A DNA stretch of 64,000 nt from Candidatus Krumholzibacteriota bacterium (GTDB lineage: Bacteria > Krumholzibacteriota > Krumholzibacteriia > JAJRXK01), in the NCBI GenBank assembly GCA_029262065.1, contig JAJDAC010000053.1:1-64000 (forward strand), written 5' to 3'. The notes below the pieces were generated by a model, which saw only the letters and a program-made list of their open reading frames with translations, had not been told where the DNA came from and ran no database searches. Numbering within the stretch: the stretch's first letter is position 1; each line of letters starts with the position of its first letter. Of the stretch, positions 23,128-31,808 are shown piece after piece. A program made the position numbers and the translations under genes.

Positions 23128-26118
23128 ATGCTGTTCCGCTCTACCGTCGCCGCGCTTCTGTCGGCGGCGACCCTTTGTTTCGCCACCGCCGCCCTCGCCG
23201 CTCGCCCCGCCCCAAACCCCGCTACCGACGCAGCCGACCGCACCGCGGCCTGGGAACTCCACCAGAAACTGGAGTCAGAGTCTGCCTTTGCCGGCCTCCC
23301 CTGGCGCAGCGTAGGCCCCGTGGACCAGGGCGGCCGCCTCATCGACATCGAGGTCCACCCCGAGCAGCCCTATACCTTCTATGTGGCCTTCGCCTCGGGC
23401 GGCCTGTGGCGCACCACCAACAACGGGCAGGACTTCGAGCCTCTGTTCGACGATCAGCCCACCATGATCATGGGCGACGTGGCACTGGACCCCAACGACC
23501 CCCAGACCATCTGGGTGGGCACGGGCGAAAACAATTCTTCGCGTTCGTCCTACAGCGGCATGGGCGTGTTCCGCTCCACCGACGGCGGCGAGACGTTCGA
23601 ACACATGGGCCTCACCGATACCGATCGAATCGGCCGCATCCTGGTGGACCCGCGCGATTCCAAGCGCGTGCTCGTGGCCGTACTTGGCCGCCTGTACACA
23701 CCCACCGGCGAACGCGGCATCTTCCTGACCGAAGACGCCGGCAAGAACTGGCGCAAGGTGCAGTCGGGTGAAACCGATTGGACCGGCTTCATCGACATGG
23801 TGCGCGACCCTTCGAACCCCGACGTGCTGTTTGCCGCGGCGTGGGATCGCTCGCGCCGACCCTGGAACTTCGTGGAAGGCGGCACCGGCAGCGGTGTGTA
23901 CAAGAGCACCGATGCGGGCACGAGCTGGGAAAGAGCAGGCGACGGTCTGCCCAGCGGACCGCAGGTCGGTCGCATTGGCCTGACCATCTGTCGCGACGAA
24001 CCCTCGGTCATGTACGCCTACGTCGACAACCAGGAACTGCTTGCCGAAAAAGACTGGGACCTGGGCGACTCGGCCATTACGCCCAAGCGAATGCGCAACA
24101 TGAGCAAGGAAGATTTCCTGGCGCAGGATCCCGAGGCCGTCGAAGACTTCGTGCGCAGCTACGACCTGCACCCTTCGATCGACGGTCCCAAACTTACCGA
24201 GATGATCGAGAACGACGAGATCGCCGTGGAAGAACTCGTGGACTCGTTGAACGACGCTAACGCCTCGTTGTTCAACACCGACATCCGCGGCGCGCAGGTG
24301 TGGCGCAGCACCAACTCCGGCCGTTCGTGGAAACTGGCCCACGCCGATCCCATTCGCGATCTGGGCTACACGTACGGTTACTACTTCGGAACCATCCGCG
24401 TGGCTCCCGATGATCCTGACCGCCTGTACATCATGGGCGTGCCCATGGCGCGCTCGGACGACGGCGGCAAGACCTGGCGCGGAATCGACAAACAACAGAT
24501 GCATGTGGACCACCAGTCCATGTGGATCGACGGTGACAACTCCCAACGCATCCTCAGCGGCAACGACGGCGGCTTGGCGGCCAGCTACGACGGCGGCGAA
24601 AGCTGGCTGGTACTGAACTCCATTGCGGTAGGACAGTTCTACACGGTGGCCGTGGACATGGCCGAGCCCTACCACATCTACGGCGGCCTTCAGGACAACG
24701 GAACCTGGAAGGGCTCGAGCCTGTCCGAGGTAGGCGATGCCTGGAGCCGCGTGGGTGGCGGCGACGGCATGTACGTGCAGATCGATTCGCGCGACGACGC
24801 CACCGTGTACTCGGGATTCCAATTTGGCTACTACGGCCGCAGTGGTCCCGACGGAAATCACCGCGTGCGTCCCCGCAACGAATTGAAGGATCCGCCGCTT
24901 CGGTACAACTGGCAAACGCCCATACTCCTTTCCTCCCACAACCAGGACATCGTGTACTTCGGCGCCAACAAGATGTTTCGCAGCATGGACAAGGGCGAAA
25001 CCTGGACCGCGTTGAGCGACGACCTGACCCGCTCGGAAAACCGCGGCGACGTTCCTTTTGGCACCATCGCCACCCTCGATGAGTCTACGTTCCGGTTCGG
25101 ATTGCTATGGGCGGGTACCGACGATGGATACGTCCACGTGAGTGAAGACGGCGGGCACACCTGGAAGGACGTAAGCGATGGCTTGCCAAGCGACCGCTGG
25201 GTGTCACGCATCGAGTCGTCGATACACAACGAACGCGTGGCCTACGTTACACTGAACGGGTATCGGAACGACGATATGACCGCGTACGTGTATCGCACCG
25301 AAGACCTGGGCACCTCGTGGCAGTCCATTGCGGCGGGCATTCCCGCCGAGCCGGTCAACGTGATCCGCGAAGACCCCGAAGCGGCCAACGTGTTGTACGT
25401 GGGAACCGATCGGGGCGTGTACGTAACAACCGACATCGGCGCCAGCTGGTCGGCGCTGCAAGGCGGGCTACCCAACACGCCCGTGCACGACCTGGTGGTT
25501 CATCCCCGCGACGGTGAATTGGTCGCCGGAACCCACGGCCGTAGCGTCTGGGTGGTCGACGTGGTCCCCATCCAACAACTGGACGACGAAGTGCGTGCGG
25601 CCGACGTCCACCTGTACGACCTGGACGAGGTGCAGGCCCAGCGTTGGTGGCGCGGTCGCAACTCCCGTTGGTTCTACGACGATGACGACGCTCCCACCAC
25701 CACTTTCACGTTCTGGAGCGCCCGTGGCGGCAAGGCCAAGCTCACCGTGCTGGACGCAGACGATCGCGAGCTGCAGACGGTCAGTTTCGACGCCATCGTC
25801 GGCATGAACGCGTTCGAATGGAATCTGCGCCTGGACCGCAAGAAGGCGATCGACGCCGAGAAAAAGCGTGTGCGTGAAGAAGATCGCAAGACGCGTGAAG
25901 ATGGGGAAACCGTTGAAACCAAAGGGGCAAAGGCGCGTACCCCGTGGGCCGAGGCGTTTGAGCTGGGCTGGCCTCTGTACATAACGGGCGGCGAATACAA
26001 GGTCCGGATCGAGATTCGGGGACAGAGCGACGAGCAATCGCTTACAGTCAAGGCACCTCCTGCTCGCGATCCGCGCATGTCGGCCCCGGCTACGCGGCCC
26101 GGAAAACTCCACCCCTGA
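23128..26118 (+). CDS. Secreted BNR/sortilin-like beta-propeller protein
   Basis: A 996-residue exported protein (signal peptide MLFRSTVAALLSAATLCFATAALA; start with GGGGAGG 5 bases upstream). It carries many BNR/Asp-box blades: GGLWRTTNNGQDF, GMGVFRSTDGGETF, GSGVYKSTDAGTSW, RSDDGGKTWRG, YDGGESWLV, VSEDGGHTWKD, DIGASWSAL. This is the VPS10/sortilin-like propeller common in environmental bacteria. Residues 860 onward form a separate domain (TTTFTFWSARGGKAKLTVLD) with a charged helical segment (KKAIDAEKKRVREEDRKTRED) and a C-terminal YKVRIEIRG strand. Likely periplasmic or surface-located; function unknown. It is followed after 55 bases by a lipoprotein on the same strand. Confidence 0.85.
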   Translation: MLFRSTVAALLSAATLCFATAALAARPAPNPATDAADRTAAWELHQKLESESAFAGLPWRSVGPVDQGGRLIDIEVHPEQPYTFYVAFASGGLWRTTNNGQDFEPLFDDQPTMIMGDVALDPNDPQTIWVGTGENNSSRSSYSGMGVFRSTDGGETFEHMGLTDTDRIGRILVDPRDSKRVLVAVLGRLYTPTGERGIFLTEDAGKNWRKVQSGETDWTGFIDMVRDPSNPDVLFAAAWDRSRRPWNFVEGGTGSGVYKSTDAGTSWERAGDGLPSGPQVGRIGLTICRDEPSVMYAYVDNQELLAEKDWDLGDSAITPKRMRNMSKEDFLAQDPEAVEDFVRSYDLHPSIDGPKLTEMIENDEIAVEELVDSLNDANASLFNTDIRGAQVWRSTNSGRSWKLAHADPIRDLGYTYGYYFGTIRVAPDDPDRLYIMGVPMARSDDGGKTWRGIDKQQMHVDHQSMWIDGDNSQRILSGNDGGLAASYDGGESWLVLNSIAVGQFYTVAVDMAEPYHIYGGLQDNGTWKGSSLSEVGDAWSRVGGGDGMYVQIDSRDDATVYSGFQFGYYGRSGPDGNHRVRPRNELKDPPLRYNWQTPILLSSHNQDIVYFGANKMFRSMDKGETWTALSDDLTRSENRGDVPFGTIATLDESTFRFGLLWAGTDDGYVHVSEDGGHTWKDVSDGLPSDRWVSRIESSIHNERVAYVTLNGYRNDDMTAYVYRTEDLGTSWQSIAAGIPAEPVNVIREDPEAANVLYVGTDRGVYVTTDIGASWSALQGGLPNTPVHDLVVHPRDGELVAGTHGRSVWVVDVVPIQQLDDEVRAADVHLYDLDEVQAQRWWRGRNSRWFYDDDDAPTTTFTFWSARGGKAKLTVLDADDRELQTVSFDAIVGMNAFEWNLRLDRKKAIDAEKKRVREEDRKTREDGETVETKGAKARTPWAEAFELGWPLYITGGEYKVRIEIRGQSDEQSLTVKAPPARDPRMSAPATRPGKLHP

Positions 26119-26173: not shown

Positions 26174-27607
26174 ATGGGGAACGTCCAAGTGTCCAACGCT
26201 CTGGCCGCCGTGGCCGTGGTATTGGCGGTCGCATTGTTCGGCCCCGGCTGTCGCGGCACCACGCCGGGCGTATCCGACGCGCGCATTTTCGGGCAGGTGG
26301 TGAAAAGCGAGAATGGCGAGCCCTACCGGGCCCTGGCCATCGCACTGCTCAACGAAGAGAAGGTGCGCATCGTCGCCACCGTCGAGCCCGACGAAAACGG
26401 CTTCTACGAATTCACCGGAGTGGCGCGCGGAACCTACGTGGTCGTGGTGTACGACGAGGCCCGTCAGTTGTTCCACACGGCCAGAGCAAGCTACCGGGTA
26501 GAACCAGGCGACGAGTTGGAACTGGACCTGCCCATGATGGCCGGGTTCAACCTGAACGACCTGTCGCTGCGCCTGGTGGGGCGCGTGGTCGACTTTGAAA
26601 CAGAGGAACCGATCGAGGGCGTGGTGGTGGAATCGACCCATCTGGGCGAAGGAACCCTCACCCTCTTTTCCGAGATCCGTGGCCACAGTTCGGCCCTTAC
26701 CGACGTCACCGACGCCGAGGGCCGGTTCCTGCTGTTTCCCGCGTCCGTTCTCGAAACAGCCGAAGGCGTACTGGTGCCGCATTTGAGAGCGGCCAAGACC
26801 GGCTACCGAGGCGGCTTCGAGGGCCCCTGGGAACGCAATCGCATTCCTCAACTCATTACGGTTCGGCTCCAGCGCGGAGAAGACGACGGAGTGGTGACCG
26901 GACGCATCACGACCTTGGAAGGAGCTCCCAAGGCGGGGGTTCCCGTGGCTCTGGAGTGGCGACGCTTCGCCTTCAACTTCCCCAAGGATGGTCTGGTGTT
27001 CGGACCGCGCGTTGGTCAGCTGTGGCCCGGCGCGACGCCACGCACCGACGCGCGCCTCGCCAAACAGGCCTTTCCCGGAGCGGTGGGCGTAAGCGACGCC
27101 GACGGTTTCTTCCGCATTGAAGGTCTGCCCGTGGGCGGCTACGTAGCCGACCCATCCTACCCCCGCGGTGACGGATGGACCGGTGAACAACTTCAAAACG
27201 TGGCGATCGACAGGGCAGGGCAGGTCGCCAACATCGGCGTGCTCCGAGTTACACCCGCGGTCATCCCGCTTGGACCCACCGATGGCATGGAGCTCAAACC
27301 ATGGCAGCTACGGTTCGACTGGAATCCGGTGCGGGGAGCGCAACAGTACCTGGTAGAGATCGTGCGCTTCGACGGCTGGACACACTTCTACCCCACCAAC
27401 AACACGTTCTACGACCCCAATCCGCTGGGCTTCGATGACGTAGGCAACTATCGGTGGAATTTGATCGCCACGAAGGAACTGGGCTTCGAGGTGGGCCGCA
27501 CCGAACGCGAGCGGGCCTTCACGATCACCGAAAACGACGTGCAGCAGGCCGCCGGCGGCGAGTCGCTCAAGGGGTTCTGGAACCCGCCCACCGGTTACTC
27601 CCCGTAG
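26174..27607 (+). CDS. Lipoprotein with carboxypeptidase-regulatory-like domains
   Basis: A 477-residue lipoprotein. The start is the ATG at 26174 with AAGGA upstream; the lipobox ALFGPGC ends at C26. It contains two or three carboxypeptidase-regulatory-like or CNA-B-like beta-sandwich modules ([102 protein letters not shown]) and a C-terminal fibronectin-like strand set ([19 protein letters not shown]). No peptidase residues. It probably forms a unit with the BNR protein. Its last 13 bases overlap the 3' end of the pyrophosphatase gene on the other strand. Confidence 0.75.
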
Positions 27608-28203
27608 GCCTCGTCGTAGTCGGCCATAGACGCCTTCACGACCGCTTCGGCGGCCTCTCGCCCGTACACGCTTTCGATCGAGACCGTGGATTCCTGACCG
27701 GGAATGAGTTTGTAGGTTCCAAAGTAGTGCCGCAGCCGTTCGACGATCACGGGCGGAATGTCCTTGAGATCCGTGGCATTGCCCCAGACGTTGTCGTTGG
27801 ATAACACGGCGATGATCTTGTCGTCGGCCTCGTCGGCGTCGATCATCTGCAGTCCGCCGACCACGCGCGCCGACACGATCACTTCACTGCGATTGATCGG
27901 CCGCTCGCTCAATACACAGATGTCCAGTGGATCGCCGTCGCCGCGACTGGCCGGCGACAGATCGCCGACCCGCTTTCCGCAGTAGGTGCGGGGAATGAAA
28001 CCGTACAACGTGGGCGGTTGCGAAGAACTGCGTTGCGGCCGGTCGATGCGCAGGTACCCCGTGGCCTTATCCACTTCGTACTTCACCAGGTCGAACGGCG
28101 TGATCTCGATGTAGGCGTTGACCATGGAGGGGGCGCCCTCGCCCACCTCCAGGCCATGCCAGGGATGCGGTCGCCAACGGTAGAACGGTTCGGGAAAGCT
28201 CAC
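27595..28203 (-). CDS. ppa: Inorganic pyrophosphatase, family I
   Basis: A 202-residue soluble pyrophosphatase hydrolysing PPi to phosphate. Recognised by [26 protein letters not shown], the signature [11 protein letters not shown] with its metal-binding aspartates, and [11 protein letters not shown]. Residues between ([17 protein letters not shown]) match the family order, and length is close to the usual 175-200. The start is the GTG at 28203, which overlaps the stop of the upstream DUF3179 gene in a GTGA junction, with AGAGGTG as ribosome site. It is therefore translationally coupled to that gene, an unusual partner for a housekeeping enzyme. Confidence 0.93.
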
Positions 28204-29189
28204 TGCAACACCTCTGTATCGGAGTTCACCGCCACCCATGTGTACCAGAACGTATCAAATCCCGCGATCGCGCGGACGGAATCGTCGCTCGCGGCCAGCT
28301 TCGCTGCGTCTTCAGGTCCCGCAATCGACGACGCCAGCGACCTGGTCACAAGATAGGCTTGAGTCGATGCAAACATCGAAACACCCGGCTCGCGATATAG
28401 CCACACGCCCTGCTCTCCATCATCGCTCGTTACCGGAAACCACTTACCACCTTCGATCGCTGAGTGTGGTACTGCGAACTCCTTTTCGAGCACGCGATGT
28501 TTCTGTGGAAGAAGCGGTGAGTAGCGAAAAGCAAAGATGTTGGCCTTGGGCTCCAATCGATCATCGTCGATCTTCAGATCGCGAAACGTCCCGTCCGACG
28601 TGAAGTAGTTCTCGTACGGGTTGCGGTCGGAGTGCTCGGCGCCATCCACCGACAGCACCTTTGTGTCGGGGTGCAGCTTGCGCCATTCACCCCAGGTGGT
28701 CTTCGTGCCGGCATCGGCAATCTCTTTCAGCGGCGATCCGTCGAGTTCGCCACCAATGGCCGAGCCGGTCATGATCGACCACCAACTGTCGGTCTCGCGG
28801 TCGCGCATGATCAGGGCGGCGTCCATCAACGCGCCCGACGCTTCAAAGTTCAGTTCCTGGTCTTCGTATGATCGGTCGTACACGACGGCCGTATTTGCCA
28901 GTGGTCACCAAACCGCCGCGAAGGCGTGCTCGCCTACCCGATCGTTGACCACCTCGTGGCGGTTCAACAGGTTCAGGCTGTAGGCGCGGGCCTCGCCGTC
29001 CAGGGCCACGCCCAGGATCCAGGCGTCGTCGGCAATCTCGGCCTCGTCGGCCTCGACAAATTCAGGCGCGAAGATGGCGGGAATGCCGCCCCGCTCAAGC
29101 AGCTGCTCCACCCCCTCGGGGAGGCTGTCCGAAGCCAGCATCGCGACCGCGCTGGCCAGGACGATGCTCATATATATGGCTGGGATCAT
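28200..29189 (-). CDS. DUF3179 protein with in-frame TGA, candidate selenoprotein
   Basis: One continuous reading frame of 329 sense codons plus a single internal TGA at 28907-28905 (position 95). The N-terminal part has a signal peptide ([19 protein letters not shown]) and the DUF3179 hallmark [27 protein letters not shown]. The TGA sits at the first cysteine of the family's CPLC motif: [19 protein letters not shown]. After it the family pattern continues undamaged ([37 protein letters not shown]) to the stop at 28200. A hairpin with a GU-containing loop starts 13 bases past the TGA. Selenocysteine at residue 95 fits better than decay; a sequencing error remains possible. The ATG at 29189 has AGGA upstream. 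It overlaps ppa by four bases. Confidence 0.7.
28873..28907 (-). promoter_or_regulatory. Candidate bacterial SECIS element
   Basis: On the mRNA, the 13 bases after UGA are unpaired. A stem then follows: an outer CG:CG pair, a bulge, and inner GUCG (28886-28883) pairing with CGAC (28878-28875) around the loop UGUA. The loop begins 23 bases after the UGA and contains GU at bases 24-25, within the spacing known for bacterial SECIS elements. The stem is short, so this is suggestive only. Confidence 0.45.
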
Positions 29190-29340: not shown

Positions 29341-29931
29341 ATGGATCGCAGGATCTTCGAAAACCTCCTTCGGGAGCACAAAGACGCCATCTACGGCTTC
29401 GCGTTCTATCTGCTTGGAAATGCAGAAGATGCGGAGGATGTGACCCAAGATGTCTTCATCTCTCTGTGGAACGCAGGGGAGGAGATCGAGGTCAAGGCGG
29501 CCAAGTGGTGGTTACTGCGGGTGTGCAAAAACGCCTGCCTCGATCTCCTCCGCCGTAGAAAGGTGCGTCAGCGTGCAAAGACCGACGGTAAGGTCCTGGG
29601 GCGCGGTCGCGTCGGTATCGAGCACATGGAGTCCGCCCGGCGGGAGCAGATTCTGGACGTGAGCGACGCGGGCGAGGGCGCGCTCCAGACCGAACTGGCC
29701 ATGGACATGGAACGCGTGTTCGAGGTCATGCGCGGGCTGAAGGAGCCGCAACAGTCGATCATCATCCTGCGGGAGATGCACGACTTGAGCTACGAAGAGA
29801 TCGCCGAGACCCTGGAATTGTCCATGAGCGCGGTAAAGGTCTACCTGCACCGCGCGCGCAAGAAGGTTCGAGACACTTTCGCGGCCGATAACCCGGCCGC
29901 AACCCCGCACCAGGCGGGAGAAACGACATGA
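29341..29931 (+). CDS. ECF sigma factor
   Basis: A 196-residue RpoE-like sigma factor. Region 2 is seen in HKDAIYGFAFYLLGNAEDAEDVTQDVFISLW and KWWLLRVCKNACLDLLRRRK; region 4 in MRGLKEPQQSIIILREMHDLSYEEIAETLELSMSAVKVYLHRARKKVRD. A charged linker separates them. The ATG at 29341 follows AGGG. The stop overlaps the next start (ATGA), an anti-sigma factor. It directs RNA polymerase to stress promoters, and a matching ECF-type promoter lies directly upstream. It is divergent from the DUF3179 gene across 151 bases. Confidence 0.93.
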   Translation: MDRRIFENLLREHKDAIYGFAFYLLGNAEDAEDVTQDVFISLWNAGEEIEVKAAKWWLLRVCKNACLDLLRRRKVRQRAKTDGKVLGRGRVGIEHMESARREQILDVSDAGEGALQTELAMDMERVFEVMRGLKEPQQSIIILREMHDLSYEEIAETLELSMSAVKVYLHRARKKVRDTFAADNPAATPHQAGETT

Positions 29932-30575
29932 AGAAGCATACGAACATTTCCTGCGACGCCATGCTCGAACGCATCGAGTTGGCCGTGCGCCAGGGCCAAT
30001 CGAACGGCCAGCTGGATCCCAGCTTGGCCGAGCACCTGGCCGCGTGTGAGAACTGCAATGAGGCCTACGAGAACGCACACTACGTACGATCGCTCGTAGC
30101 CACCGCCCACGCACCGGTGTGTCCGGACAACGTGGTCGATTCAATTCTGGCGCAGATCGACGCGACACCGCGTAGGAGCGTGCCCATACGCACCGGCCGT
30201 ACCCAGTCGCCGCGCCCGCGTTCTACCCGTTGGGCGGCCGCGGCCACGGCCATCGCCGCCATTCTGTTGGTAGCCCTCATTCCGGGGCGGCTGAATCATC
30301 TGGCCCCGATGATATCGGACCAGTCATCGATATCGGAACCGTACTCCGCGGCCGAGGTAGAAGCCGCGGCCGAAGAATTGAAGATCGCGTTGGCTCTGGT
30401 CTCCCAGAACCTTGATCGTGCGTCGGGCCTGGTTGGCTCGCAGTTGCGCGGCCACATTGCCGACCCCGTGTTCAAGAGCATGGGCAAGGGAATCCAGGCC
30501 GTACCGCTGCGAGGCTTTCGTCCAGAAGCCGATGAACACTCTTCATACCTGATCCCGCACCGCAGCGAATGCTAG
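29928..30575 (+). CDS. Zinc-finger (ZAS) anti-sigma factor
   Basis: A 215-residue membrane protein. The N-terminal domain has the ZAS motif H36-x3-C40-x2-C43 (HLAACENC) typical of anti-sigma factors that sequester ECF sigma factors. One membrane helix is at residues 101-120 (RWAAAATAIAAILLVALIPG), followed by a periplasmic domain. A four-base ATGA overlap with the sigma gene indicates coupled synthesis. Its periplasmic part contains a helical segment (AAEVEAAAEELKIALALVSQNL) that could sense the signal. Downstream on the same strand are two DUF4252 genes, the usual companions of this arrangement. Confidence 0.88.
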   Translation: MKKHTNISCDAMLERIELAVRQGQSNGQLDPSLAEHLAACENCNEAYENAHYVRSLVATAHAPVCPDNVVDSILAQIDATPRRSVPIRTGRTQSPRPRSTRWAAAATAIAAILLVALIPGRLNHLAPMISDQSSISEPYSAAEVEAAAEELKIALALVSQNLDRASGLVGSQLRGHIADPVFKSMGKGIQAVPLRGFRPEADEHSSYLIPHRSEC

Positions 30576-30627
30576 CCCCCGGCGTGTGTTCGCAATGACA
30601 ACCGCTCGTGAAGGAAAGACGACAAAG

Positions 30628-31248
30628 ATGAAAACGATCTTTGCCATCCCAGTGATGATGATGACGGGTTTGATGTTGCTGGTTGCCTCGGTGGCCGCGC
30701 AAGACGAAGCCTACCGCAATTCCCCCGGCTACTTCGAGTTCGGCGACGTGCTCGAATATTCCGACGGCGACGAACTGGTCGAGATCGACCTGAGTCAACC
30801 GCTGCTGGGATTGCTGGGGGCCGTAATGGGCTCGGAAGATCCCGAACTGGCCGATCTCATGCGTGAGCTCGAGCTGGTGAAGGTAAACATGTTCAGCTAC
30901 GACCGAGACTCCGAGGGCGATTTGACCAAGCTCGTCGACGACCTCAACAAGCGGCTGAAAAGCGGCGACTGGCAGAACATCGTACGGGTTCGCGGCGAGG
31001 AAGACGTGAACGTATTCGTGAAGATGGGTTCCCGCGGTGACGGCAACAATCCCGACGACGCCACGTTCCAGGGTCTGACCGTTCTGTTCATGGACGACTA
31101 TGAAGCCGTCTTCGTGAACGTGGTCGGCGAGTTCGGGCTCGACGAAATTGCCCGCGTGGGCCGCCACTTCGATATCCCCCACCTGGAAGACATAGATTCC
31201 GGCCGCGACGATGATGACCGACGCGATCGTCGTCGGCGCGGGGGTTGA
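30628..31248 (+). CDS. DUF4252-like exported protein
   Basis: A 206-residue exported protein. The start is the ATG at 30628 with GAAGGAAAG upstream rather than 30586. A signal peptide (MKTIFAIPVMMMTGLMLLVASVAAQ) precedes a domain ending FMDDYEAVFVNVVGEFGLDEIARVGRHFDIPHL, which fits DUF4252 proteins found behind ECF sigma/anti-sigma pairs. The tail is strongly charged (SGRDDDDRRDRRRRGG). Function is unknown; a role in signalling to or output from the sigma factor is inferred from context. The stop touches the next start (TGATG). Confidence 0.75.
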   Translation: MKTIFAIPVMMMTGLMLLVASVAAQDEAYRNSPGYFEFGDVLEYSDGDELVEIDLSQPLLGLLGAVMGSEDPELADLMRELELVKVNMFSYDRDSEGDLTKLVDDLNKRLKSGDWQNIVRVRGEEDVNVFVKMGSRGDGNNPDDATFQGLTVLFMDDYEAVFVNVVGEFGLDEIARVGRHFDIPHLEDIDSGRDDDDRRDRRRRGG

Positions 31249-31808
31249 TGATGCGCGGCGCACGAAACGCAGCGCTGATTGCAGTTTTGGCGTTGACCCT
31301 GGGTGGGTGTTTCACCAACCCGGACATCCACACAGTGGTCGACGCCATCTCCTGGGAAATCGAACCGGCCGAATTGAACACGGAAGTTGAACTACGGTTC
31401 GGTTCGAAGAGTGTGTCGCTGGCCCGATCCATCTGCGGATGGATCGAGGACTGCGAAGAATATCGCCACATGCTCAGCGGCATTCGGCAGGTACACCTGG
31501 GCGTATACGACGTCCAGGGCCGGTTCGACGCCTCGAGCCTGAGCTTGAGCGACGGACTGCGCCACGACCTGGAAGACGAGGGCTGGCAGGTCGTCATGGT
31601 ATCGCAGGATCAAGACAACGAGGGCATCATGGTCCTGACGCAGGTCATCGACGACGATCTCACCGGCCTGTATGTCATAAGCATCGACCGCGACGAACTG
31701 GTGGTCGTGCGACTGGAAGGCGACCTGGCCAAGCCGCTCGACACCCTACTGCGGCGCGACGAGGACTTCATGGTTTCGGTACGAGGCATCGGCGCCGAAG
31801 ACTTCTAG
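31248..31808 (+). CDS. DUF4252-like lipoprotein
   Basis: A 186-residue lipoprotein. Lipobox LTLGGC. The ATG at 31248 overlaps the previous stop by one base. The fold region (MVSQDQDNEGIMVLTQVIDDDLTGLYVISIDRDELVVVRLEGDL) matches the same DUF4252 pattern as the preceding gene, so the two are probably paralogues, one soluble and one lipid-anchored. It is the last gene of the sigma operon; a strong terminator begins 25 bases after its stop. Confidence 0.75.
   Translation: MMRGARNAALIAVLALTLGGCFTNPDIHTVVDAISWEIEPAELNTEVELRFGSKSVSLARSICGWIEDCEEYRHMLSGIRQVHLGVYDVQGRFDASSLSLSDGLRHDLEDEGWQVVMVSQDQDNEGIMVLTQVIDDDLTGLYVISIDRDELVVVRLEGDLAKPLDTLLRRDEDFMVSVRGIGAEDF

Follow-up and report, generated by a model that had tools for sequence, protein, structure and literature searches.

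An in-frame TGA in a DUF3179 gene of a Krumholzibacteriota bacterium is very probably a selenocysteine codon

The window analyzed here, a stretch of 64,000 nucleotides from a Candidatus Krumholzibacteriota genome, contains a DUF3179 gene whose reading frame is interrupted by a TGA, and the question is whether this triplet ends the protein, reflects an error, or is decoded as an amino acid. The frame lies on the minus strand and runs from an ATG at 29189 to a terminal TGA at 28202–28200, with the TGA at 28907–28905 as its sole interruption. A preliminary description of the locus, made from the DNA letters alone, had counted 329 sense codons and one TGA. The single TGA stands, and the count is corrected to 328 sense codons in a frame of 330 codons counting both TGAs. 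The read-through product matched Pfam PF11376 (DUF3179) with an E value of 1.1e-57 and 196.1 bits, well above the curated cut-off of 27, over profile positions 2–292 of 292, which places it in the DUF3179 family. NCBIfam and PDB sequence searches with the protein found nothing. In the family alignment, the TGA occupies the column of the first Cys of the CPLC motif, and the second Cys is replaced by Ala (GCA), giving a UPLA motif in the context WUPLAN. The preliminary description had already placed the TGA at the first Cys, with the DUF3179 pattern on both sides and no decay after it. The family alignment and the nearly full-length profile match bear this out, and the downstream protein stays aligned and is conserved among relatives. 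The Ala in place of the second Cys was left unmentioned there. A plain annotation would truncate the gene at the TGA; the comparisons made here confirm the gene. The features of the locus are collected in Table 1.

Table 1. Features of the DUF3179 locus in the 64-kb window
Feature	Positions	Strand	Evidence
Predicted DUF3179 selenoprotein gene, 329 residues, Sec95	28200..29189	-	PF11376 match; AlphaFold2 mean pLDDT of 92 for the read-through product
Predicted Sec-UGA codon in W-U-P-L-A-N	28905..28907	-	Same-column TGA shared by 43 distinct sequences (12 UPLA)
Hydrophobic N terminus, a likely signal peptide or membrane anchor	29130..29189	-	Sequence; N-terminal helix in the predicted model
Predicted SECIS hairpin, its stem formed by 28891-28885 and 28879-28873 around the loop CGUGU at 28884-28880, C.A mismatch at the fourth position	28873..28891	-	Covariation; absence from non-TGA forms; covariance model
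Family I inorganic pyrophosphatase gene (ppa); 4-nt overlap from a proposed GTG start	27595..28203	-	PF00719, E = 1.3e-44, for the longer ORF 27595-28239

The in-frame TGA is very probably the selenocysteine (Sec) codon of a DUF3179 selenoprotein with a bacterial-type SECIS element, because the genome encodes the Sec machinery, the TGA recurs at the same column in 43 sequences, and a covarying hairpin at a fixed distance is absent from the homologues lacking the TGA. A candidate selenoprotein was what the preliminary description had proposed, and these three lines of evidence support it. As to the machinery, a search for selA, selB, selD, and tRNA-Sec, suggested in the same description, recovered all of them in the window's genome. 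The E values were 4.8e-140 for selA, 1.4e-105 for selB, and 3.2e-100 for selD, and ARAGORN identified a tRNA-Sec with the anticodon TCA, so that the complete set expected for a bacterial selenoprotein is present. In the phylum of the window, Krumholzibacteriota, 76 of the 78 genomes searched carry selA, as do all five further UPLA-carrying genomes, those outside the first genome search. The selD gene of the window's genome (L048, contig C48, 88900–89832) is likewise interrupted by an in-frame TGA, in an apparent SelD motif, AAGUAAKL, and SelD is probably itself a selenoprotein.

That the UGA is instead decoded as another amino acid, or passed by general read-through without selenium, is very unlikely, even though Sec95 is a predicted residue whose identity comes from the sequence. 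The whole Sec machinery is present in the genome, and the codon sits on the Cys column of the family with a hairpin of its own. In addition, TGA terminates 16 of the 34 frames open for at least 300 codons in the window (mechanical open frames, some of which are perhaps not genes); since TGA is an ordinary stop there, a code-wide reassignment is unlikely.

The second line of evidence is the conservation of the TGA. Among 98 genomes searched, DUF3179 genes interrupted by a single TGA were numerous, and the family was found in 36 of 80 genomes of the window's phylum. Besides the window gene, 11 UPLA homologues with 45–65% identity were obtained, and all 11 carry the TGA at the identical codon; the closest relatives of the window gene share the UPLA motif. 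In a scan of named genomes, they came from entries titled Krumholzibacteriota, Latescibacterota, Acidobacteriota, Thermoanaerobaculia, and, in some cases, only "bacterium." Another 31 DUF3179 genes of the window's phylum have the TGA at the same column in other motifs (UPLC, UPIC, UPLT, UPLV, UPLQ, UPPA, and the outlier UGVC), which brings the total to 43 distinct sequences, 12 UPLA and 31 other. Some of these 43 come from loci outside the phylum. Predicted DUF3179 selenoproteins are thus common in Krumholzibacteriota. One of them is a second DUF3179 gene of the same genome (L060, contig C15, 18707–19102), with an in-frame TGA, a UPPA motif, and a fully paired SECIS hairpin. Viral contigs were scanned as well, and no relative was found.

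A further 20 distinct DUF3179 sequences have Cys, Ser, His, or Asn at the Sec column. Cys is found in L026, L033, L062, L063, L090, L093, and L110–L114, and the alternation of TGA and Cys that the preliminary description had expected from an alignment of homologues is therefore present. Ser, His, or Asn replaces Sec/Cys in nine genes of the same phylum (L032, L036, L039, L081, L084, L089, L091, L092, and L094), and the Ser/His/Asn genes of the phylum form one well-supported group. In a quick tree, the UPLA sequences also clustered together, with an SH-aLRT support of 98%, and 2 changes accounted for the U label, versus 17 in shuffles. Many inner branches of this tree are weak, so that it gives no firm count of how often Sec was gained or lost.

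This conservation bears directly on the possibility that a sequencing or assembly error, or a decayed gene, placed a TGA where a Cys codon belongs. The genome is a draft of 59 contigs, and one base would suffice. The TGA is shared, however, by 12 UPLA genes of separate genomes and by 31 other homologues, the downstream protein is aligned and conserved, and the hairpin is confined to TGA forms. Judged from these comparisons, the error or pseudogene explanation appears effectively refuted, and is the least probable of the explanations weighed here.

The third line of evidence, the hairpin, begins 13 nt past the UGA and consists of a stem of seven positions and a 5-nt loop with a central GU, confirming the location and the loop given in the preliminary description. 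Taken alone, the window hairpin is weak (−4.1 kcal/mol for the local 19 nt, with one C.A mismatch), and a single-sequence fold of the SECIS region in the window was no better than shuffles; it is unconvincing by itself and becomes convincing only because of the comparison with homologues. The hairpin is kept at the fixed distance, loop GU included, in 42 of the 43 TGA forms and is absent from the 20 Cys/Ser/His/Asn forms. The mean number of paired positions is 6.5 of 7 in the former set of 43 versus 2.7 of 7 in the latter (Mann–Whitney p = 5e-11, for sequences that are phylogenetically non-independent). Across 29 aligned sequences, 92% of the stem cells are paired and four of the seven pairs show two-sided change, covariation counts that relatedness inflates; the covariation score of the stem was reached by none of 500 shuffles, and shifting the partner strand by 1 to 3 columns abolishes the signal. 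A conserved SECIS hairpin thus follows the UGA, as in bacterial selenoprotein genes. Codon conservation of the gene is highest in the hairpin region, in an 11-position stretch from codon 97 (0.66 versus a mean of 0.48).

A covariance model was built from 21 sequences, with the window and its two relatives of the same family withheld. Searched against the 64-kb window, it ranked the window site first with 36.8 bits (E = 8.1e-10), the next best match scoring 12.5 bits, and its top two matches in the whole genome were the two TGA-containing DUF3179 genes. Rfam held no matching family for the hairpin and gave a chance match only. Most UPLA genes have a mismatch, C.A or G.A, at the fourth stem pair, where the A is dictated by the Asp codon GAC. 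The outlier with the UGVC motif (L102) lacks the shared hairpin at the usual columns and has a different local hairpin of −10.6 kcal/mol; it may be misaligned or have a different SECIS form.

Here, we propose how the gene may be decoded and what its product may do. SelB with Sec-tRNA(Sec) would bind the hairpin 14–32 nt downstream of the UGA, and the UGA would be decoded as Sec at residue 95 of a 329-residue protein, which is probably exported. The AlphaFold2 model of the product has high confidence (mean pLDDT of 92) and places Sec95 where a β strand ends and enters a turn (Pro-Leu-Ala-Asn). A fold search with this structure gave no PDB match at E ≤ 0.001, and the function is therefore unreadable from a known fold. 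Since the UPLA subfamily lacks the second Cys, the most likely reading, though a tentative one, is single-selenol redox chemistry: an outside thiol would resolve the selenenyl intermediate, in place of the internal Cys of a UxxC site. Ser, His, and Asn at the Sec column elsewhere in the family do not fit a simple redox role family-wide, and these residues leave room for a binding role. It is thus possible, with a somewhat lower probability, that Sec is inserted and the Sec/Cys site binds a metal or ligand and is no redox centre. Homologues with Cys, His, Ser, or Asn at the column are consistent with such a site, as is one haloarchaeal Cys form with genes for a heavy-metal ATPase and a plastocyanin-like protein close by, whereas Ser and Asn are poor replacements for a soft metal ligand, and other Cys forms are found near thioredoxin-like, peroxiredoxin-like, or sulfur-transfer genes. 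Single-selenol chemistry is still preferred for the UPLA proteins. The range of residues found at a single column (Sec, Cys, Ser, His, and Asn) makes the family a natural series for testing the contribution of Sec.

The gene overlaps the downstream ppa by the sequence GTGA, the proposed GTG start lying at 28203–28201. The preliminary description regarded ppa as translationally coupled and its normal expression as requiring read-through; the overlap holds, though it was seen in this genome alone, and the requirement is only inferred. If Sec insertion also controlled ppa by translational coupling, the pyrophosphatase level in this species would depend on selenium. No second family I ppa turned up in the genome, which favors such control. 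Nevertheless, it is unlikely: the DUF3179–ppa arrangement was seen in no other locus examined (related loci, several of which had flanks of about 4 kb), a membrane pyrophosphatase is also encoded in the genome, and ppa may have an internal promoter. On the other side, an ECF sigma factor gene followed by an ORF of 215 aa (together 29341–30575, plus strand) is divergent from the DUF3179 gene. The 215-aa ORF had no Pfam match, and its position suggests an anti-sigma factor; no close copy of the ECF sigma gene was found beside the UPLA relatives. Also on the plus strand are two adjacent DUF4252-related ORFs (30586–31808), the second just below the cut-off, and a gene for a protein of 996 aa that matches Sortilin-Vps10 and BNR repeats (23128–26118).

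Whether Sec forms of DUF3179 had already been described was a question raised in the preliminary description, and the answer is yes. DUF3179 is tabulated as a selenoprotein family with the motif UxxC/T (PMC9312934, PMC13188914), and PMC13188914 credits Zhang and Gladyshev 2007, a study of an Olavius algarvensis symbiont. The window gene belongs to the same PF11376 family, and its single predicted Sec likewise opens a UxxC-type motif. In the listed motif, the third residue past Sec is Cys or Thr, whereas all 12 UPLA sequences, the window gene included, have Ala, and relatives have Val, Gln, or UPPA; with the family match and without the UxxC/T motif, the gene is a motif variant within DUF3179. 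A Cys-type DUF3179 protein of Thiothrix subterranea (WP_308134675.1) shares the domain and the column, but has a Cys codon in place of TGA, and only four of the seven stem positions pair. As to the bSECIS consensus (PMC13188914), the window hairpin agrees in being a stem-loop just past the UGA, with a 5-nt loop (CGUGU) whose second and third bases are G and U, and with 20 nt from the UGA to the loop; the size of the loop, its early G, and the spacing are all within the published limits. It differs in that most UPLA stems are broken at the fourth position and weaker than the energy limit of −7.5 kcal/mol, which the window hairpin does not reach and 25 of the 43 TGA forms do. A limited literature search combining Krumholzibacteriota with selenoprotein or selenium found only isolated mentions of the terms. 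It is rather improbable that all of the following hold together: that UPLA is a distinct and conserved DUF3179 branch using Sec without a resolving Cys or Thr, that its mismatched SECIS is imposed by the Asp codon, and that ppa translation is selenium-gated here. Compared with the published lists, what appears to be new is the predicted UxxA/V/Q motif forms, which are absent from them; a conserved UPLA subfamily that would have kept Sec and lost the partner Cys; a mapped putative SECIS hairpin; and, within one bacterial phylum, near-universal SelA and a phylum-wide spread.
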